From Halosimplex halophilum (lineage in GTDB: Archaea; Halobacteriota; Halobacteria; Halobacteriales; Haloarculaceae), in assembly GCF_004698125.1 (NCBI RefSeq), contig NZ_ML214297.1:868001-932000 (forward strand): 64,000 nucleotides of DNA, given 5' to 3'. Positions 40,471-62,779 of the stretch are shown in pieces. Position 1 is the stretch's first letter. The number at the start of each line of letters is the position of its first letter. A program made the position numbers and the translations under genes. The notes under the pieces were generated by a model that saw nothing but the letters and a program-made list of their open reading frames with translations, did not search any database and had not been told where the DNA came from.

Positions 40471-41757
40471 ATGGCAGGGTTGGACGACTTCCAGGGCTTC
40501 GGCGAACGGGCCGAGCGCGAGCTCGGCAAGGTCGACCGGCACGATCCCGTCGACCGGCCGCACGTCAAGCGCTTCGCCAAGCGCCTCGACGGCTCCGTCG
40601 CCGAGGGCACGCTCGCCGAGTACCTCAAGAACCTCCGCAAGACGGCCGAACGCCTCGACCAGCCGATCGTCGAACTCTCCGAGGCGGACTTCGACGCCCA
40701 CGTCTTCGAGCTCCGCCGGAACCCCGAGTACGGCATGGGCGACGAGCCCGGCCTCTCCGACGGGACGATCCGCAACGTCGAGTTCGCCGTCCGGAAGTTC
40801 CTGAAGGCCGTCGACATCGAGGGTACCGAGTGGGCCGACGACTACGAGCTGACGCCGCCGCCGGACACCAAGGTCAGCCCCGAGGACATGCTCCGGTCGG
40901 AGGACATCTCGGCGTTGGTCGACGGCGCGAACAACATGCGCGACATCGCGATGATCGAGTTCCTCGCCGACACCGGCGCCCGCCTCTCGCTGCTCGGGTC
41001 GCTCCGGGTCGGCGACGTGGACCTCGACGGCGACCAGGCCACCTACCGGCCGAACGACCAGGCCGTCGGCCTGAAGGGCGCCGACATCGCGAACTACCCC
41101 ATCATCGACGCGAAGACGCCGGTCCGGACCTACCTCCGGCAGGTCCATCCGCGCCCGGACGACGACGAGGCCGCCTTTTTCCACAAGATCCCCGGCCACG
41201 GGAACGGCGCCCCGTGGGACGAGGACGGGGCCCTCTCGCCGTCGACGATCCGCAAGCAGCTGCGGAAGGCCGCCGACAACGGCGGCGTCGACCGGCCGGT
41301 CCATCCCCACAACTTCCGACACTCGGCGATCACGCGCATGGTCCGCGAGGACTACACCCGCGCCCAGATCGAGCACCGAGTCCACTGGGAGGTGGACACC
41401 GACATGTGGGAGACCTACCAGCACATCGCCGCCGAGGAACACAACGCGGACATCTTCGCCCACGCGGGCGTCGGCGACGCCGACGACGGCGTCGAGCACG
41501 AGCGCCGGCCCTGCGGGAACTGCCGGGAGCCGCTGGCGCCCCATCACGAGTACTGCCCCCGGTGCGGCGAGCCCGCCACGCAGGAGGCGCGGAACCGCCG
41601 CGACAACGCCGTCGCGAAGCTCGGGGAGGGACAGGTCGATGTCGAGGAGATGAGCCGCCGGGAGTTCCGCGCCCATCTGCTGGCGGCCGTCCAGGCCAAC
41701 GGCGAGATCGCGGACGCTCATGATGCGGACTCCTCCCCGTCGAGCGACTCGACGTAG
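40471..41757 (+). CDS. Tyrosine recombinase / integrase (left)
   Basis: A 428-residue site-specific recombinase. The catalytic set is visible: Arg171 in ADTGARLSLLGSL, His280 and Arg283 in HPHNFRHSAITRM, Trp306 in VHWEVD and Tyr316 in WETYQHIAAE. Residues 348-365 hold a zinc ribbon (CGNC...CPRC), and a further tail follows. The N-terminal 130 residues are the SAM-like core-binding domain. It is the boundary marker for the virus-like element; its 3' end overlaps the convergent small gene by 40 bp. Confidence 0.9.
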   Translation: MAGLDDFQGFGERAERELGKVDRHDPVDRPHVKRFAKRLDGSVAEGTLAEYLKNLRKTAERLDQPIVELSEADFDAHVFELRRNPEYGMGDEPGLSDGTIRNVEFAVRKFLKAVDIEGTEWADDYELTPPPDTKVSPEDMLRSEDISALVDGANNMRDIAMIEFLADTGARLSLLGSLRVGDVDLDGDQATYRPNDQAVGLKGADIANYPIIDAKTPVRTYLRQVHPRPDDDEAAFFHKIPGHGNGAPWDEDGALSPSTIRKQLRKAADNGGVDRPVHPHNFRHSAITRMVREDYTRAQIEHRVHWEVDTDMWETYQHIAAEEHNADIFAHAGVGDADDGVEHERRPCGNCREPLAPHHEYCPRCGEPATQEARNRRDNAVAKLGEGQVDVEEMSRREFRAHLLAAVQANGEIADAHDADSSPSSDST

Positions 41758-52627: not shown

Positions 52628-54484
52628 TTACTCCAGCGCGTAGACGTTGTTGTCGCCGCTGCCGATGAACAGCCGCCCGGAGTCGAGCGCCGGCGGTGAC
52701 CACACGAGGAACGACCCCGCCGACGCGGTCCAGTTCTCGCTGCCGTCACTGACCGCCAGCCCGTAGACGTTGCCGCTGCCGTCGCCGAAGTAGACCGTGT
52801 CCGACGTGACCGTCGGCGACGACTGGACGGCGTCGGCCGCCTGATAGGCCCACTCCTGAGAGCCATCGCTGGCCGCCAGCGCGAACACGTTGTTCTGGCC
52901 GGTCGCCGTGGTCGCGGCGAACACCGACCCGTCGCGCACGGACGGCGAGACGAACACGTCGCCGCCGAGCGCGGTCGACCACGTCTCACTGCCGTCGCCG
53001 GCGTCGAGCGCGTAGACGGTGTCGTCGAAGCTCCCGACGTAGACGGTGCCGTCGACGACCGCCGGCGAGGAGCGCACCTCGTTGCCGGTCGCGACCGTCC
53101 AGACTTCGCTCCCATCGGACGCGTCGAGCGCGTAGACGGTGCTGTCGTTGGACCCGACGTAGACGGTGCCGTTGGCGACCGCCGGCGAGGAAACCACGTC
53201 ACCCCCGGTCGCGTAGGTCCACTGTTCGCTGCCGTCGCTCGCCGCCACCGCGTAGACCGAGTCGTCGTTGCTGCCGACGTAGACGGTCCCGTCGACGACC
53301 GCCGGCGACGAGGAGATCGTGTTGCCGGTCGCGTAGGTCCACTCCTCGCTCCCGTCGGCCGCCGACAGCGCGTAGAGCGTGCTCCCGGCGCCGACGTAGA
53401 CGGTCCCGTCGACGACGGCCGCCGACGAGAGGATCCCGCTGCCGAGACCGGTCGACCACTCCTCGGAGCCGTCGCTGGTCGCCAGCGCGTACATGGAGGC
53501 GTCCCGGCTCCCGACGTAGACGGTCCCGTCGACCACCGCCGGCGACGCCTGGACGAGCGACCCCGTCGTGTAGGTCCACGCCTGGCTCGACGAGCCGGTC
53601 GGGCCCGTGTTCGCCGTCGCGCCCGTGTTTTGTGCGTCCACCTGGTACTGCGCGAACCCGCCGTAGGAGACGGTCGTCGGCGCGCTCACCGGCTCGATCC
53701 GGTAGGTCCAGCGGCCGGAGACGCCGGCGACAGACCCGCCGGTCGCGTTCGAGATCTCGAAGCGCACGTCGGCCGGCCCCGAGACGGTCGCCAGCGGGTC
53801 GCCAGTCGCCCGCTTGGCCTCGGTAGCGTGGTGGACCGTCCCGCCACCCTCCGTGACGACACGCGCCGCGAGACCGGTCGTTGCGGACAGCGTGTCCGAC
53901 ACCACGCCCGCCCGGTAGAGGGCGATGCGCTCGGTCTCGGTGATGCGCTCGCGGTAGTAGCGCGTCTCGCCGTCGACCAGGCTCGGCGCGTCGACGACCG
54001 CCGGTGGCTCGTCGGGCCCGTCGCCAGTGGTTGCGACGCCCGGCAGGTCCGACGGGATGGGCGACCGCCCGCGGACGGCCTCGTCGACCCTCCGCGAGGC
54101 CGTGTCGACCGTGCCCGCCAGCAGCGCGTCGGGCCCGGGCGGCTCGTCGGCGTCGCGCACCTCCCAGACGTTGTCGCCGCGGAAGTAGACGAAGTTGGTC
54201 GTCCCGCTGGCCAGCCCCAGCCCGGAGACCGCCTCGACCGTCACGAGTTCCTGCCGATCCCCGGTGTAGCGGGCGATGCGCCCGGCGCCGATCGACAGCG
54301 AGGGGCCACTGGAGTCGTACGAAAAGCTGCAGCCGCCGGGGATCACGAAACTCGACAGGAAGGCGAACCCCTCGTAGGTCGAGAGGTCAAGCTCGCCGGC
54401 GATGTTGCCGTCGCCGTCGTCGGGGATCCCGGGCCGGCGTTCGCGAATCTGTGCGGTCGGGGTGGCGGTGGAGACTTGAGCCAT
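52628..54484 (-). CDS. Tail-tip protein with eight-blade PQQ-type propeller
   Basis: A 618-residue protein. About 300 N-terminal residues resemble a virus tail or fibre attachment part (AQVSTATPTAQIRERRPGIP, then DNVWEVRDADEPPGPDALLA). Residues about 301-618 hold eight repeats of about 40 residues of the type WTYATG..V.SSPAVVDGTVYVGS...VYAL.ASDGSE, the PQQ-like beta-propeller pattern. It is the last gene of the tail operon, the place of receptor-binding proteins, so it probably binds a cell-surface target. No enzyme residues of PQQ dehydrogenases are seen. Confidence 0.75.
   Translation of the reverse strand: MAQVSTATPTAQIRERRPGIPDDGDGNIAGELDLSTYEGFAFLSSFVIPGGCSFSYDSSGPSLSIGAGRIARYTGDRQELVTVEAVSGLGLASGTTNFVYFRGDNVWEVRDADEPPGPDALLAGTVDTASRRVDEAVRGRSPIPSDLPGVATTGDGPDEPPAVVDAPSLVDGETRYYRERITETERIALYRAGVVSDTLSATTGLAARVVTEGGGTVHHATEAKRATGDPLATVSGPADVRFEISNATGGSVAGVSGRWTYRIEPVSAPTTVSYGGFAQYQVDAQNTGATANTGPTGSSSQAWTYTTGSLVQASPAVVDGTVYVGSRDASMYALATSDGSEEWSTGLGSGILSSAAVVDGTVYVGAGSTLYALSAADGSEEWTYATGNTISSSPAVVDGTVYVGSNDDSVYAVAASDGSEQWTYATGGDVVSSPAVANGTVYVGSNDSTVYALDASDGSEVWTVATGNEVRSSPAVVDGTVYVGSFDDTVYALDAGDGSETWSTALGGDVFVSPSVRDGSVFAATTATGQNNVFALAASDGSQEWAYQAADAVQSSPTVTSDTVYFGDGSGNVYGLAVSDGSENWTASAGSFLVWSPPALDSGRLFIGSGDNNVYALE
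52640..53590 (-). repeat. Eight tandem propeller repeats (DNA level)
   Basis: Successive ~120-bp units share the phrase CGTAGACGGTGCCGTCGACG and related stretches, most strongly in blades 3-5. The near-identical inner copies suggest recent duplication or homogenisation within the gene. Confidence 0.6.
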
Positions 54485-54487
54485 GGG

Positions 54488-56557
54488 TTATCGGGAGTGG
54501 CGGGCGACGCTTTCGATGCGCGAGCGGAAGCCCGAGAAGACGCTGTCGATGGGCTCGCGGGCGTCCAGGCGGACCGAGGCCCCAGCGGGTGTCGCCTCGA
54601 TGTCGACCGTCTCCAGGCTGGCGACGGGTAGCCGGGCGGAGACGAGGTCGGCGACCGGCGAGTAGGTGGTGTTGCCCCGGAGTTCGGCCGTCGCGTCGTA
54701 GGTCGGCGACGAGGCGGCGTCGAGGATCTCCTCGGCGGCCAGCCGACACGCCCGGTCCGAGCGCAGGGGCAGCTCGTCGATCGTCTGCGACCGGATGGGC
54801 GCGGTCGCCCCGTCGCGGGTGACCGTCGCGCTCGGCTGGAACTGGTAGGAGACGAGCAGCTCGGCGCCGGCAGGGATCGGGTCGGCCCGCGGCGGGTCGT
54901 CGACCGTCTGGAGCGTGCCGGCGTCGTAGTCGATCGTGTAGTGGGTGCCGCGCTCGTAGGTCTGGCTGGAGTCGGCGTCGGTCACGGTCTCGCTCCCCTC
55001 GACGACCTGGCCGTTGTCGAGGTAGGCGTCGGGCGTGAACGACGCGCCGACATCCTGCAGGATGGCCGGGGCGACGCGGACGGCCTCGCGCTCCACGTCG
55101 ACACGGCCGCCGAGGATCCGGACCTCGTCAAGGCGGTCGTCGACGCGCTTTTCCACCGAGTAGTTCTCGATGTCGGGCTGGGTGGACTGGCGACTCCCGG
55201 ACTGGACGAACCGGACGATCTCGTTGCCCTGGTCGTCGGTGTCGAACGTCCAGATGAAGTCACCCCGCAGCGTGTCGGCCAGCTCCGTGAGGACCTCCGC
55301 GACGGTGCCGTCGACGGTCTCGTCGACGACCAGCGGCATGGTCGAGAGGTCGGCGACCAGCCGGAAGCCCGTCAGCCGGTTGGCCTTGAAGCCGTACTCC
55401 GGCGTCTCCGTGCTGTCGCTCCCGTAGCGGGTGACGACCACGTCCACGTCGGCGACGGCGCCGTAGCTGTCGAAGTCTACCTCCTCGGTCGCGTACTCCG
55501 ACTCGGCGCCGTTGCTCAGGTCGAACGTCCCGGGCTCGTTGTCCGCCCAGTAGCCCTTGATGCGGAGGCCCGTGACGGCGCGGGTGACCAGCGGCTCCCG
55601 CAGCGAGACGGGCAGCGCCGCCGGGTGCGTTTCGGGCCCGGTCACGAGGTCCGGGTCGAAGTCGTAGTCGAAGCCCGCGTCGTAGACGGCGATCGCGTCG
55701 GGGGCGACCGCCGTGAGTGCCGTCCCGCCGGCGTCCTCGGTCGCGATGCACTGCACCGTCAGCGTGTGCTCGCCGGCGTCGAGACGCTGGTCGGCCCCCT
55801 CGCGACGGATCCACGTCGGCGCCGTGTCCACCGTCGTCCCGGGTTTGACCTCGCCGATGACCGAGCCGTCGACGGCGAGTTCGAGGCCGACGATGTCGCC
55901 GGTCGTGTCGATGTCGACCGCGGCGCCGACGCGCTCGGCCGGGATGGCGTAGCCCAACTCGACCGTCAGCTCGACGGCCTTGCTCTGGGCGTCGAGCGTC
56001 GTCGATGGCTCGCCCAGGAACAGCGTCTGGTGGCTGGTTACATCGCCGTCGACGACCCGAGCCGGCGAGTCGTCTGCGGGCGGCTCGATGTCCGTCGTCG
56101 CGAGGCCGTCGGTCTTGTCCCAGACGAGCACGTCCTGCTCGGTGGTCTCGGCGACCTCGGACTCGAAGCCGTAGCTGGTGTTGTCCTCAACGACGCGGCG
56201 GGCGGCCTCGACGGTCGGGATGTTCGAGAACGACGCCTCGGCGCTGTCGTCCAGCTCATCGCCGCCGATAGCGCGGAGGATCGTGACGCCCGCCGACGGC
56301 CGGTCCTCGAAGCCGACGAGACGGTCGTACGGCTGTTCGACGCCGTCCTTGAGGACGTGCACGCTCGCATCCTCGTACGCAGAGGCGAACCACTCAGGAT
56401 CGCCATTGCTGTCGCGGTTCGGCGGCACGGCGAACTCCAACACGGGCCGGCCGTTCGCCGCGGGGATCCGCCGGGGCATGTTCTCCCCAGCCGGCGCGTA
56501 CAGCGGCGGGGAATGGTCGTCCCCTCCGGCGTCGGTGATCGTGATGTCCCAGGACAC
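54488..56557 (-). CDS. Baseplate hub / tail-tip protein
   Basis: A 689-residue protein. The N terminus (MSWDITITDAGGDDHSPPLY) leads into a beta-rich domain; later parts (YADGTHYT-like region YERGTHYTIDYDAGTLQTVD, and ELPLRSDRACRLAAEEILDA) resemble siphovirus hub proteins that follow the distal tail protein. It is 4 bp before the tail-tip propeller gene. The call rests on size, position and fold style, not on a named motif. Confidence 0.65.
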   Translation of the reverse strand: MSWDITITDAGGDDHSPPLYAPAGENMPRRIPAANGRPVLEFAVPPNRDSNGDPEWFASAYEDASVHVLKDGVEQPYDRLVGFEDRPSAGVTILRAIGGDELDDSAEASFSNIPTVEAARRVVEDNTSYGFESEVAETTEQDVLVWDKTDGLATTDIEPPADDSPARVVDGDVTSHQTLFLGEPSTTLDAQSKAVELTVELGYAIPAERVGAAVDIDTTGDIVGLELAVDGSVIGEVKPGTTVDTAPTWIRREGADQRLDAGEHTLTVQCIATEDAGGTALTAVAPDAIAVYDAGFDYDFDPDLVTGPETHPAALPVSLREPLVTRAVTGLRIKGYWADNEPGTFDLSNGAESEYATEEVDFDSYGAVADVDVVVTRYGSDSTETPEYGFKANRLTGFRLVADLSTMPLVVDETVDGTVAEVLTELADTLRGDFIWTFDTDDQGNEIVRFVQSGSRQSTQPDIENYSVEKRVDDRLDEVRILGGRVDVEREAVRVAPAILQDVGASFTPDAYLDNGQVVEGSETVTDADSSQTYERGTHYTIDYDAGTLQTVDDPPRADPIPAGAELLVSYQFQPSATVTRDGATAPIRSQTIDELPLRSDRACRLAAEEILDAASSPTYDATAELRGNTTYSPVADLVSARLPVASLETVDIEATPAGASVRLDAREPIDSVFSGFRSRIESVARHSR

Positions 56558-56560
56558 GGG

Positions 56561-57517
56561 TTAGACCTCCCGCAGATCCAGATCGAAGCCGTAGATGCCG
56601 CTGGCTCGTGGGTCGACCGGCAGGATGCTCGACTCGTCGCCCAGCGCGAACGTACCCGTCAGCGGGTTGTCCGGCAGGTTCGGTGAGACCACCTCCACCC
56701 TGTCGACGCCGTCGTTGGCGAGGATCTCGTCGCGGAGCGTGGTCGCGATTGACTCGGCCTCCTGGCCGCGGAACGCTCCCTGGAGAGCGACCCGTTTCGG
56801 GAGGAGTTTCGTGACGAGCGTGGTGGGGTTGCTCCCACCGTCGTTGCCGTTCGTGTCGACCAGGCCACTCTCGGCGGCGAACCGGCGGAGTGCCTGCTCG
56901 CCGAGCCCGAGCGTGTCCATCGGGAGCGGGATCCGCGGCGTCGACAGGCCGGCGGGCTGGAGCCACATCTCGGCGTTCGGCGCACCGAGGCTGTCGACCG
57001 TCTCCGAGAGGTTCGCGGCCTCGACGAGCGTGAGCCGGACGCCCGCCTCCGAGGAACTCTCCCGACGGTTGGTATCGATGTCACGCTCGGTCGGCACGAC
57101 CGCGAGTGGGCCGAACTTGCCGTCCTCGGAGTACTCGGCCCATTCGAAGGTAGCCGTCCGTGTGGAGTCAATCCTCGCGTTCGCGAGGTCGTGCATGAAC
57201 GTTTGAGCCTTGCTGACGGCGCTGTCGCTCGGGACCGTGTTTCCGAATGTGTCGTCGCTGTCCTCGTAGACGACGGCCTCGATGTTGAACGTCCGCGTTC
57301 CGGCACCGACGCCAGCAAACGCGCTCTGCATGGGCGAGTCGTCGACGCCCTGCTGGCCGCCTGTTTGCTGGAGCCAGTTTTCGAAGATCGCGGTGAACTG
57401 ACCACCCTGGCCGTCGTACAGAAACGAGGTGATGTGATTCTCGTCGACGATGAGATCGTCGGTGAAGCGATACGTCCCGCTGTCTCCGGGAAGGTCTAAT
57501 CGAACTCCGTTTAACAT
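56561..57517 (-). CDS. Distal tail-like protein
   Basis: A 318-residue protein at the position of a distal tail (Dit) protein, between the tape measure and the hub. It contains VRLDLPGDSGTYRFTDDLIV and MWLQPAGLSTPRIPLPMDTL, and is largely beta. The family call is by gene order and rough fold only. Confidence 0.6.
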   Translation of the reverse strand: MLNGVRLDLPGDSGTYRFTDDLIVDENHITSFLYDGQGGQFTAIFENWLQQTGGQQGVDDSPMQSAFAGVGAGTRTFNIEAVVYEDSDDTFGNTVPSDSAVSKAQTFMHDLANARIDSTRTATFEWAEYSEDGKFGPLAVVPTERDIDTNRRESSSEAGVRLTLVEAANLSETVDSLGAPNAEMWLQPAGLSTPRIPLPMDTLGLGEQALRRFAAESGLVDTNGNDGGSNPTTLVTKLLPKRVALQGAFRGQEAESIATTLRDEILANDGVDRVEVVSPNLPDNPLTGTFALGDESSILPVDPRASGIYGFDLDLREV

Positions 57518-57757: not shown

Positions 57758-58825
57758 TCACCGGCGGTTGGAGAGTTTCCGCTCCAGCCGATTCTCGAAC
57801 TGGTCAAGCTCTTCCTCGACGATTCGCTCGACCTCCCGCTGCTCGGTCCCGACATCCACGTGGTTAGTAACCGATACCGTGGTGCTTGCGCCACTCTCAG
57901 CGGGGCCGGCGCCACCCGAACCGGCTTGGAACGCAGCTGCCTGTTGCCGGTTGGTTGACTCGCCAATCCGGGAAAGGTCCGCGCCGGTCGGTGAACGATT
58001 TTCCCCACCGGGCGGTTCGACGTTGGGCTCCATGAACGGATACAGCTCTTGGGCCCTGTGCGTCATCCGCTGGTCCCAGTTCGCAAACGCCTCGCCACCA
58101 GGGACGTTGCTGACGAAGTTCCGGAAGTGATCTCCTATCGAGTCTGGACCGGACGGGGCGTCATCACCACCGCCGCCACCACCTCCAACCCGACCTGTTG
58201 CCGAGACGGCGACGCTCACGTCGACCTCAGGATCCTCGACCGGGATCTCCGACGACGGCATGTCGACCGGGATCGGATCCGGCTCGGTCACCGGCAGCGG
58301 CACCCACTCGGGCTTTTTCACTCCGACGGAGTCGCTGCCGAGTAACTCTTCGAGTGCGCCGATCCCACCCGACGCCGCGAGCGCTGCGGCGGCCCCCGAC
58401 AGCGCCGTCGCCGATGTCCCCAGTGCAGAGGCCGCGCCGGTGAGTGCCGCCGCCCCGCCTGCCTCGCCAGCGTTGCCGAGGGTATCGGAGATGGTGCCCC
58501 AGATGCCGCCCAGGCCGCCACCACCGCCACCGCCACCGCCGGCGAGCCCGCCACCGGGACCACTCTCCAGCAGCTCCTCCAGCAGCATGTTTCGGCGCTG
58601 GTCCTGTTGCGAGATCTCGGCGAGATAGTCGCTCTGGTCCTGCAGCTCACTGGAGATGCGGCGCATCCCACGCCCACCCGCGCCGGCGCCGCCACCGTCA
58701 GTGACTGGTCGCGGGGCGATCCCTCCCACGTCACCCAGCTCGCGCTCGATGACGCGGCGGGCCTCTGCGAGCGACTCGTCGGTGATCTCGATGTCGACGC
58801 TCGCACTCGTCTCGAAGTCGCTCAT
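57758..58825 (-). CDS. Tape measure-like protein
   Basis: A 355-residue protein with a helical N-terminal lead (SLAEARRVIERELGDVGGIA, then ISSELQDQSDYLAEISQQDQ), a Gly-rich low-complexity stretch and an Ala-rich hydrophobic part (AAALTGAASALGTSATALSG), and a C-terminal helical EELDQFENRLERKLSNRR. Tape measure proteins set tail length; at about 1.5 A per residue this length would mean a tail near 50 nm. The call rests on place (after the tail assembly chaperone) and composition. Confidence 0.65.
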   Translation of the reverse strand: MSDFETSASVDIEITDESLAEARRVIERELGDVGGIAPRPVTDGGGAGAGGRGMRRISSELQDQSDYLAEISQQDQRRNMLLEELLESGPGGGLAGGGGGGGGGLGGIWGTISDTLGNAGEAGGAAALTGAASALGTSATALSGAAAALAASGGIGALEELLGSDSVGVKKPEWVPLPVTEPDPIPVDMPSSEIPVEDPEVDVSVAVSATGRVGGGGGGGDDAPSGPDSIGDHFRNFVSNVPGGEAFANWDQRMTHRAQELYPFMEPNVEPPGGENRSPTGADLSRIGESTNRQQAAAFQAGSGGAGPAESGASTTVSVTNHVDVGTEQREVERIVEEELDQFENRLERKLSNRR

Positions 58826-59001
58826 GGCTGGAACACCTCACGGAGCGTCGGGAGCGCGGTCAGGTACAAGTCTACGTCTTGGACGGACATGCTGTCGATC
58901 TCCTCGGTCGTGAACCCGCGGTGTATCAGCGCGGCCCGTGCAAACCAGTAGTACGTGGCTGGCTCGGACAGGTCGAGCGCGTCGACACCGCGGCCTACGC
59001 G
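58822..59001 (-). CDS. Tail assembly chaperone T extension, -1 frameshift
   Basis: A 59-codon open frame (RVGRGVDALDLSEPATYYWF, then GFTTEEIDSMSVQDVDLYLT) that has no good start of its own but joins the upstream chaperone in the -1 frame at GGGAAAC. The fused product would be about 231 residues (172 from the chaperone plus 59). This G/GT arrangement just before the tape measure gene is a hallmark of siphoviruses. An independent GTG start at 59055 is the alternative and would overlap the chaperone gene by 61 bp. Confidence 0.7.
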   Translation of the reverse strand, partial: RVGRGVDALDLSEPATYYWFARAALIHRGFTTEEIDSMSVQDVDLYLTALPTLREVFQP

Positions 59002-59516
59002 TTTCCCACCGCGTCGGGGAGCGCCGTCTGGTCGCGGATCCGATCGACGATCCACTCCGTCACCTGCGGGTACTCGCTGGACAGGGTCGCAACCAGTTGT
59101 CCGTGGGCGGCGGCGCTGGTCGGGTCGTCGATGTCGTCGGAGACGAACGGCGCGTCGACCAGCCCCGCGGCCGCCTCGTAGAGGTCGCGCGTCCCGACAG
59201 CCCCGGCGTCGCCGAAGCCGGCGGCGCCCGCTTCGGCCTGGACGCTTTCGAGCTTGTCCCGGACCAGCGCCTTGTCGCCCATGTCGAGCCCGCCGACCGT
59301 GACGGTCGCGTCGGCGCCGTAGCCGTCGAAGTCGCTGTCGTCGCCCTCGATGAGGTACTGGACGGCGCTGGCCTTCCGGGCGAGGTGACCCCGGACGGTG
59401 TCGACCGCCGCCGCGTCTTCCTCGCTGTCGGTCTCGACGGCGTCGAGGTCGTCGTAGGCGTCCTGTAGTCGCTCCAGTTCGTCGCCGAGTGTGATCGTGG
59501 TGGTGTTGAGAGGCAT
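58995..59516 (-). CDS. Tail assembly chaperone (G-like)
   Basis: A 173-residue helical protein (ITLGDELERLQDAYDDLDAV, then EYPQVTEWIVDRIRDQTAL) at the place of the lambda gpG-type chaperone: after the tail tube and before the tape measure. The stop is two codons after the slippery site, so most ribosomes stop here while some enter the -1 frame. The start is MPLNTTTITLGDE, three bases after the tail tube stop. Confidence 0.72.
   Translation of the reverse strand: MPLNTTTITLGDELERLQDAYDDLDAVETDSEEDAAAVDTVRGHLARKASAVQYLIEGDDSDFDGYGADATVTVGGLDMGDKALVRDKLESVQAEAGAAGFGDAGAVGTRDLYEAAAGLVDAPFVSDDIDDPTSAAAHGQLVATLSSEYPQVTEWIVDRIRDQTALPDAVGNA
59001..59007 (-). promoter_or_regulatory. Programmed -1 frameshift slippery site GGGAAAC
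   Basis: Read on the minus strand the heptamer GGGAAAC is in the frame G GGA AAC of the chaperone gene, exactly the X XXY YYZ form. The frame-0 stop TAG lies two codons on (58995-58997). In the -1 frame the ribosome reads CGC GTA GGC and goes on for 59 codons. It differs from the phage lambda GGGAAAG in only one base. Confidence 0.78.
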
Positions 59517-59519
59517 GAG

Positions 59520-60446
59520 TTAGGCTGTCTGGGCGAAGGATCCGTCGACGTTGAACGTGACCGACTCACTGGCCGTGGCGTCCGAACTCACGAGATCCTG
59601 CCAGTCGTAATCGTTCGGCCGGAGCGCGCCGAGCGAGTAGTCGGCGACCGTCCCGGCAGCCGTCTCGAAGCTGACTGCACCCGAGACGCCGCCGATCTCG
59701 TCGGCGGGCGAGGTCGCGGTGGTCGTCCCGTCGTAGGCCCGGGAGAGTGTGTCGGCCGTGCGGATGTCCGCGTCAGCGGTCAGCTGGACTTCCGGCGTCG
59801 CGCGGATCGCATCCGACGGTTCGCGACTGGTCCCGCGGACGAGTCGGGCGAGGTTCGACAGCGACAGTTCGGCGCTGTTCAGCGACGCCGACCACGGGGT
59901 AGAGCTGTCGATGCTGAACGTCGACCCGTGGAACGGTGCCTCGTCGGTGGCGCCGGTGAGCGTGTCCGGGGTGATGGTCGTGTTCTTGTCCTCCGTCGCG
60001 TACGGGCCGGTCAGCGTGACGCGGACGATCTCCGACGTGGTGTAGGCGATCGTCGCCTCGGTCGCAACCCAGCCCTGCACCTGCCGCTCGACAGTCGTCG
60101 TGCTCGACACCGAGTCGGCGAACTCCAGACCCATGTACCACTCCGCGGATGGGACGTGCCCGGTCCCGAAGACTTGGTCACCCGAGCCGTTGGTGTCGTC
60201 GAACAGCAGGTCGTGGAAGTCCCCCGTGGAGAGGTTGAAGCTCACCGAGAGGGCACCCTCCAGCTGCTGTGCGACCGACCGGTCGGCGATGACGCTGTCC
60301 GGCTTGCGGACTCGGGTGAGGTAGTTCTCGATCGTGAGGTTCTCGACGGTGACATCTGACCCGGGGATGACGTACGCCGGATCCGCGGCGGTACCGTCGT
60401 TGTACGCGCTTTCGAGCGCGTAGGCAACTGTACTGTTTCCGCTCAT
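59520..60446 (-). CDS. Major tail tube-like protein
   Basis: A 308-residue, mostly beta protein (AYALESAYNDGTAADPAYVI, then VSFNLSTGDFHDLLFDDTNG) at the position of the tail tube gene, directly before the chaperone. The C-terminal half has Ser/Thr-rich repeats (GVSGAVSFETAAGTVADYSL). Family by order and style, not by named domain. Confidence 0.65.
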   Translation of the reverse strand: MSGNSTVAYALESAYNDGTAADPAYVIPGSDVTVENLTIENYLTRVRKPDSVIADRSVAQQLEGALSVSFNLSTGDFHDLLFDDTNGSGDQVFGTGHVPSAEWYMGLEFADSVSSTTTVERQVQGWVATEATIAYTTSEIVRVTLTGPYATEDKNTTITPDTLTGATDEAPFHGSTFSIDSSTPWSASLNSAELSLSNLARLVRGTSREPSDAIRATPEVQLTADADIRTADTLSRAYDGTTTATSPADEIGGVSGAVSFETAAGTVADYSLGALRPNDYDWQDLVSSDATASESVTFNVDGSFAQTA

Positions 60447-60853: not shown

Positions 60854-61057
60854 GGTCTGTGTCCGAAAAACGCCGTGTTGCTCCCTCGCGCCGGCCCACG
60901 GCGACCGGCGGTCATCGGGGATCCACTTAGTTACTGATAACGTACCAAAATGTTATACGCGCAGACATACACGCTTGTCACGAGCGCGGTGGGTCACGCA
61001 GGAAAGTGGCCCCGGTGGTGGAGACACCGACGCCGCGCTCCGGCAGGTGACCGAAGC
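60854..61057. other. Divergent promoter region between tail operon and right integrase
   Basis: About 200 bp that holds the start of the tail operon (minus) and of the right recombinase (plus). AT-rich TTAGTTACTGATAACG (60929-60944) is a possible promoter element. No head gene fits here. Confidence 0.4.
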
Positions 61058-61777
61058 ATGGCAACCAACGCAGCGGACGGATTTAGGAGTACCGCCAACC
61101 AGACCACCCACTCGAAAGAAGACGCCCTCGACGAGGTCGAGTTCGAACTGCTGTTTGAGGGCGCCAGCAGCCTCGACGACTATTACGGGATCCAGGCCCA
61201 GTTCGTCATCCTCGTCCTCGGTCGCCTCGGTCTCCGCCGGGGCGAACTCTGCCACATGCGGGAGTCGTGGGTCGACTGGCGCAACGAGGAGATCTGCATC
61301 CCGCGCCAGCAGGACTGCCACGGCGAGCGCCAGGGCGACGGCCCGTGCGGCTACTGCAAGCAGCTCGCCCGCCAGCGCGCTGAGGTCAACGAGGGGATCT
61401 CGTACGAGCGCGCCCTCGAAGACGTGTGGAAAGCCAAGACCGACGCGGCGGCCCGCGGTGTCTACTTCGGGTTCGACCCGCGCGTCCAGCTGTTCATCGA
61501 GCGGTTTTTCGACCGCTTCGACTCCTGGACGTGGTCGGCGACGGCCATCAACCGCCGGGTCGACAAGGCCGCCGCGGCCGCCGACGGCGTCTCCGTCGAC
61601 GAGGTCCGACCCCACAGCCTCCGGGCGACGGCGGCGACGAACCTGGCGGGGAAGGGCGCTGATATGCATAGTCTGATGCAGTTCTTTGGCTGGGCCCAGC
61701 CGGAGACCGCCGAGTTCTACATCGCGCGGAACTCGACGGCGACCGCCCGGCAGCTCGACGCGATCCACCAGGGGTAG
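61058..61777 (+). CDS. Tyrosine recombinase / integrase (right), short
   Basis: A 239-residue recombinase. Catalytic residues are visible: Arg60/61 in LGRLGLRRGELCHM, His186 and Arg189 in RPHSLRATAATNL, Trp212 in FFGWAQPE and Tyr221 in EFYIARN. Cys residues at about 80, 87, 97 and 100 form a possible zinc site. The N-terminal core-binding domain is missing or very short, so it may be a partial enzyme or one of the short haloarchaeal type. A longer in-frame start exists at 60950. Confidence 0.8.
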   Translation: MATNAADGFRSTANQTTHSKEDALDEVEFELLFEGASSLDDYYGIQAQFVILVLGRLGLRRGELCHMRESWVDWRNEEICIPRQQDCHGERQGDGPCGYCKQLARQRAEVNEGISYERALEDVWKAKTDAAARGVYFGFDPRVQLFIERFFDRFDSWTWSATAINRRVDKAAAAADGVSVDEVRPHSLRATAATNLAGKGADMHSLMQFFGWAQPETAEFYIARNSTATARQLDAIHQG

Positions 61778-61870: not shown

Positions 61871-62737
61871 TTAGAGATAGCCCAAAGCTTCGAGTTGATC
61901 ACCAACATCGGCAGAGTCGATTTTTGACCCACTACCGTCCCGAATCGTGCGGCGTTGATCTGTCGGAACAACGTGCCATGGCACCGTGCGGAGGATCTCG
62001 TGTTGGAACCCATAGGGATGGCCGTAGAAACCTGCAATTCCAACATTCGGGAGCAACGGTTCGCCCAGGAGTTCGCCGTGATCTGCGGTGATCACGGTCT
62101 TCCCTAATTCCGCGTCGATTACTGGTCTGATCGCTTCTTGAACGATCTCAAAGTTCTCTCGATATGCCTTTTGAACCAGTTCTTGTGACACCCCATTGCG
62201 AGATATCGCCTTCTGGAGTGGTTCTCTCTCGAACGAGATCTCCTGCCCCGTCTGCCCAAGGTAAGGCGCATGAGGCTGCATATAGTGCGCTAACACCCGC
62301 TTTTCTGGGTACTCGGCAGCAACCTCCAAGACACGATCTGTGACTCGTTCTGGGTCGGTTAATTCGCGTGCTTCGTCATCTGGTTCTACCCACTCAAAAT
62401 GGTGGACACGTAACCCGACCTCATCCGCTAATTCCCTGTAAAACGGATTCGTAGCTACGATGACGAGGTCATCATAATCGCCCACGAAGTTGCCCCGAAC
62501 CCACTCCTCGCTCGTCGAGCCTCGTGACCACACCTTTCGAAGGTCGCCGTCGATCTCGCAGTGTTTCTCAAAAACATCGTAACGGCAGGCATCTAAGACG
62601 AGTAGAACATCCCAATCCCTGGTATGGATATTGACCCCATTTGTATCAAACGGTGGATTTTGTCTCACCTTCCGTTCCCTCCAGAACTCTGTCGCTGTAA
62701 CTTTCGGGTTCTTAATCGCAAATGTAAGTTGGCCCAT
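61871..62737 (-). CDS. Sulfatase/alkaline-phosphatase-superfamily protein
   Basis: A 288-residue protein with the metal-binding core DVLLVLDACRYDVFEKHCE, HYMQPHAPYLGQTGQEISFE and VITADHGELLGEP (Asp-His ligands). This is the alkaline phosphatase/sulfatase superfamily, often found in haloarchaeal glycan-related islands. GC content is clearly lower than in the host core, a sign of transfer. An ATG at 62746 is also possible. Confidence 0.75.
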   Translation of the reverse strand: MGQLTFAIKNPKVTATEFWRERKVRQNPPFDTNGVNIHTRDWDVLLVLDACRYDVFEKHCEIDGDLRKVWSRGSTSEEWVRGNFVGDYDDLVIVATNPFYRELADEVGLRVHHFEWVEPDDEARELTDPERVTDRVLEVAAEYPEKRVLAHYMQPHAPYLGQTGQEISFEREPLQKAISRNGVSQELVQKAYRENFEIVQEAIRPVIDAELGKTVITADHGELLGEPLLPNVGIAGFYGHPYGFQHEILRTVPWHVVPTDQRRTIRDGSGSKIDSADVGDQLEALGYL

Positions 62738-62779
62738 ACCCACCATTTGGCAGGTATCGCGGCTGCTTTCCTAATATAG

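Follow-up and report, generated by a model that had tools for sequence, protein, structure and literature searches.

The window analysed here is a 64,000 nt stretch of the Halosimplex halophilum assembly GCF_004698125.1 (NZ_ML214297.1:868,001-932,000), numbered along the forward strand. The whole G/T arrangement described below lies on the minus strand (Table 1). The frame-0 gene, G, ends in ...GAC GCG GTG GGA AAC GCG TAG, with a G_GGA_AAC heptamer in frame with G and the TAG stop at 58997-58995. Past the heptamer the -1 frame encodes a further peptide, T (RVGRG...VFQP), which ends at a TGA (58824-58822) that overlaps the ATG of the following gene as ATGA. A G-T fusion would be 231 aa in length. 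These features bear out an earlier note on this DNA, which had described a frame-0 GGA AAC heptamer near TAG and a -1 frame, open for 59 codons and ending at the tape measure gene, that would extend G to about 231 residues; both figures were reproduced from the sequence, and the strand, which the note leaves unstated, is minus throughout. GGGAAAC is not rare as such, with 4 occurrences in the window against 5.7 expected, and the case therefore rests on position, frame and conservation.

Table 1. Genes and signals at the G/T locus, in forward-strand numbering of the window.
Feature	Positions	Strand	Remarks
Three downstream tail-gene ORFs, the last with a C-terminal PQQ-type β-propeller	52628..57517	-	
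Putative tape measure protein, 355 aa	57758..58825	-	Labelled by position; PHROG 32118, unknown function
T, -1-frame extension, 59 codons past the heptamer plus TGA	58822..59001	-	Conserved -1-frame domain; helical model
G, tail assembly chaperone, frame 0, 173 aa	58995..59516	-	PHROG 19457 family; hhalign and Foldseek homology to HCTV-1 chaperone
Slippery heptamer G_GGA_AAC	59001..59007	-	One codon (GCG) ahead of frame-0 TAG; conserved in homologs
Rival start GTG, in the T frame, upstream of the heptamer	59053..59055	-	Last G of GAG plus TG of a frame-0 Trp codon
Putative tail tube protein, upstream of G	59520..60446	-	PHROG 18409, annotated minor tail protein

The gene order tail tube, G/T, putative tape measure is found in the window and also in the genomes G209 and G204. 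Just beyond the window's end are genes for the terminase, the portal, the maturation protease and a head protein, so that the provirus is more than a tail-only element. The window has integrase ORFs at 40471-41757 and 60950-61777. It also contains a host gene with 96% identity to Halosimplex pelagicum, which places the host in Halosimplex or close to it. The ORF at 60950-61777 (plus strand) encodes a tyrosine recombinase and interrupts the morphogenesis cluster in the opposite orientation. Its neighbours at 61871-62746 (minus strand) and L067:2780-4432 (minus strand) match no family. The recombinase may serve in fibre switching, or may belong to an inserted element. At the end of the tail cluster, the gene at 52628-54484 (minus strand) encodes a protein whose C-terminal β-propeller matches Pfam PF13360 and PF13570, and which is perhaps a receptor-binding protein.

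PHROG 19457, a family with no assigned function, is matched by each of the 18 sequences in the G alignment. Window G is homologous to the annotated tail assembly chaperone of HCTV-1 (Haloarcula californiae tailed virus 1, KC292029), as judged both by hhalign (E 2e-7) and by Foldseek (probability 0.99, TMq 0.50, E 0.034). A PDB fold search with G gave no match below E 2, and no lambda-like family was present among the PDB and PHROG search results. The predicted structure of T is small and helical (mean pLDDT 83); a viral fold search with this model gave no usable match, and comparison of the HCTV-1 T with the T profile detected no similarity.

Searched by itself against phage records and against the contigs of IMG/VR and GTDB, the window protein returned no homologs. 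These were found by whole-genome searches, of the order and class first and of the family later, in many haloarchaeal genera and at identities of about 25-41%. Matches that fell within open frames longer than 600 aa (L018-L021, together with further weak matches) were judged non-homologous and dropped. Removal of near-duplicates left 42 sequences for analysis, the window included, and the later addition of L146, L147, HCTV-1 and the Halorubrum virus BJ1 (NC_008695) brought the number of distinct homologs to 46. A heptamer was scored when X_XXY_YYZ, with Y being A or T, occurred in frame within the last 45 codons of G.

Such a heptamer is present in every one of the 42 core sequences: 37 have GGGAAAC, two GGGAAAT and one each AAAAAAC, AAAAAAT and AAATTTG, the last of these (L063) having been taken in post hoc and being the weakest of the set. 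GGGAAAC is also found in L147, HCTV-1 and BJ1, such that 45 of the 46 homologs keep a classical heptamer, GGGAAAC in 40 of them, at a distance of 3-36 codons from the stop. When the genes were recoded synonymously with their own codon usage (500 trials), the mean number of sequences with a heptamer was 2.2 of 42 and the maximum 7, and no such heptamer occurs in the 5,415 codons that lie outside the last 45. The in-frame position of the heptamer at the 3' end of the G family is far beyond chance. It is likewise retained, as GGGAAAC, in five IMG/VR contigs close to L006. Overlap without a heptamer, which the earlier note had named as refuting the frameshift, was seen in a single one of the 46 homologs, L146 (G754, L146:1500-2250), the closest found (41% identity), in which a short T run, U_UUU_CGG, occupies the site; its T is still in the -1 frame and has no start codon before the T core. 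Retention of the heptamer in nearly all of these distant relatives makes the frameshift reading sound. In L010, at about 1980-1992, two overlapping in-frame slippery heptamers occupy one site, GGGAAAGGGAAAC.

The -1-frame proteins of the homologs align from the heptamer onward and share the core A..LM..GHDPRE...Y..RD.E. Between the close IMG/VR relatives L006 and L134, 13 of the 18 changes in T past the G stop fall at third positions of the -1 frame.

T might instead be a separate protein, made without any frameshift from a start of its own, either the GTG at 59055, which shares the T frame, or one used by termination and reinitiation at the G stop. In haloarchaea, overlaps of stop and start codons are common, as is reinitiation, and in several homologs the G stop shares bases with an ATG or GTG (as TGATG, ATGA or GTGA); in those viruses reinitiation of a short T is possible. 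Starts of the xTGA type are, however, expected often by chance at TGA stops, and in the window the next T-frame start past the stop is an ATG at +107, which would leave only about 22 residues. The GTG at 59055 derives from a frame-0 Trp codon and is not conserved as a start among the homologs. In 17 of the 42, moreover, the -1 frame is closed by a stop no more than 12 codons before the heptamer and offers no start in between, which argues against translation from this GTG, and in three no start is found anywhere from the opening of the -1 ORF to 45 nt past the G stop. Between the heptamer and the G stop none of the 42 has a start codon, a result that is due in part to the absence of Trp and Cys codons from frame 0 and is not to be over-read. 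An independent start would also leave unexplained both the conserved heptamer and the -1-frame conservation that begins there. Translation of T from its own GTG, which the earlier note had set against the frameshift, is thus disfavoured, and we consider an independent start for T, at either place, very unlikely.

A Gly-Asn motif needed in G could in principle account for the heptamer, the overlap then being incidental, and Gly-Asn is indeed encoded at the site in 39 of the 42 homologs. All 39 are nevertheless written G_GGA_AAC or G_GGA_AAT, whereas glycine is encoded by GGC, GGT or GGG in the eight Gly-Asn pairs that lie elsewhere in these genes, where only 27 of 399 glycine codons are GGA. 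Homologs that lack Gly-Asn carry other slippery heptamers in its place (AAAAAAC, AAAAAAT, AAATTTG). Of all the readings weighed here we give this one the least credence, as extremely improbable. Little more can be said for two generic alternatives, namely that T is joined to G by transcriptional slippage or that it is a decaying remnant. Neither has positive evidence, the short T run at the L146 site being all that could be put forward; the longest run in GGGAAAC is three bases, and T is conserved across many genera with a third-position bias. We regard both as highly improbable, more so than an independent start.

The locus is thus very probably a lambda-type G/GT tail assembly chaperone gene with a -1 frameshift, carried by a siphovirus-like haloarchaeal provirus. 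The majority of ribosomes would terminate at TAG and release G (173 aa). In a minority, the tRNA-Gly on GGA in the P site and the tRNA-Asn on AAC in the A site would slip back by one base, re-pairing from GGA to GGG and from AAC to AAA respectively, and T would then be read to give GT (231 aa). On the model of lambda, G may coat the tape measure protein and T may recruit the tail-tube protein, and a fixed G:GT ratio would set up tail assembly. Sequence, frame, conservation and synteny are observed at the locus, as is the relationship of G to a haloviral protein annotated as a chaperone; that slippage takes place in vivo in Halosimplex, how often it does so and what G and T do are inferred. The central proposal of the earlier note, that a -1 frameshift yields both a G-like and a GT-like protein, is supported by the conservation and by the HCTV-1 homology, with production of the two proteins predicted from sequence.

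A search for RNA structures other than pseudoknots found none conserved downstream of the heptamer (mean z -0.30, SD 1.18, n = 42), suggesting that the signal may need little beyond the heptamer itself, or may involve elements of another kind, such as pseudoknots. The A-site codon is Asn in 44 of the 46 homologs, and AAG or AAA occurs at the chosen site in none; L010 has an extra GGGAAAG just upstream of its chosen site. In the A site, mammalian ribosomes prefer Asn codons and those of E. coli prefer AAG. We suggest, tentatively and from these codon counts, that the A-site codon favoured by haloarchaeal ribosomes in such heptamers may be that for Asn (AAC or AAU), a preference that we hold to be possible but on balance unlikely. 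If it is real, archaeal -1 frameshifting would be eukaryote-like in its tRNA usage.

By 2021, one archaeal gene, for a Saccharolobus fucosidase, had been shown to undergo programmed -1 frameshifting, and the haloviral -1 cases listed by the same source rest on reports of apparent use (PMC8211752). The near-uniform GGGAAAC across 46 divergent homologs provides a strong and directly testable archaeal signal, suitable for reporters, and the homolog set suggests the tRNA pair on which the archaeal ribosome would slip. PHROG 19457, hitherto of unknown function, gains one as tail assembly chaperone G. New here are the set of compared homologs, in which GGGAAAC is near-uniform and the A-site codon nearly always Asn, the T of BJ1 and one informative loss, that of L146.

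The arrangement can be compared with several known systems. Lambda gpG/gpGT uses GGGAAAG, on a bacterial ribosome. The window resembles lambda in its gene order, its overlapping -1 frame and the position of the shift, which in lambda lies near the 3' end of G (PMC5009743). The two lambda products are not present in the mature virion (PMC5009743). Among haloviruses, the HF1 group and HSTV-2 have two chaperone CDS ahead of the tape measure gene for which a +1 frameshift has been proposed, and the HF1 group has no classical heptamer (PMC7230728, PMC5009743). In Hardycor1 (HrrHc1_110/115), a -1 slippery sequence, G GGA AAT, is found at the end of the gene ahead of the tape measure gene, and a Natronolimnobius relative of Hardycor1 has G GGA AAG at the corresponding gene end (PMC7911831); both heptamers differ from the GGGAAAC of the window, and the comparison is one of arrangement.

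BJ1 gp61 is a G homolog (hhalign E 8e-18) with the heptamer of the window: GGGAAAC stands in frame 25 codons ahead of the stop, followed by a -1-frame T (L139:2776-2961) that overlaps gp62 as ATGA and is missing from the deposited annotation. The nearest precedent is HCTV-1, in which gp122/gp123 is annotated as a two-piece joined CDS encoding the tail assembly chaperone. A -1 frameshift in this chaperone was, according to the credit given in PMC5009743, proposed in the 2013 genome paper, and its GGGAAAC heptamer is stated in PMC5009743. HCTV-1 shares with the window the heptamer G_GGA_AAC, which in HCTV-1 lies 11 codons ahead of the stop, the -1 direction and a place in the tail module ahead of the tape measure gene. 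It differs in that two more genes separate GT from the tape measure gene, and that it is a virus isolate whereas the window carries a provirus. As HCTV-1 is already annotated with the same arrangement and heptamer, the Halosimplex locus is a well-supported further case of a known arrangement.
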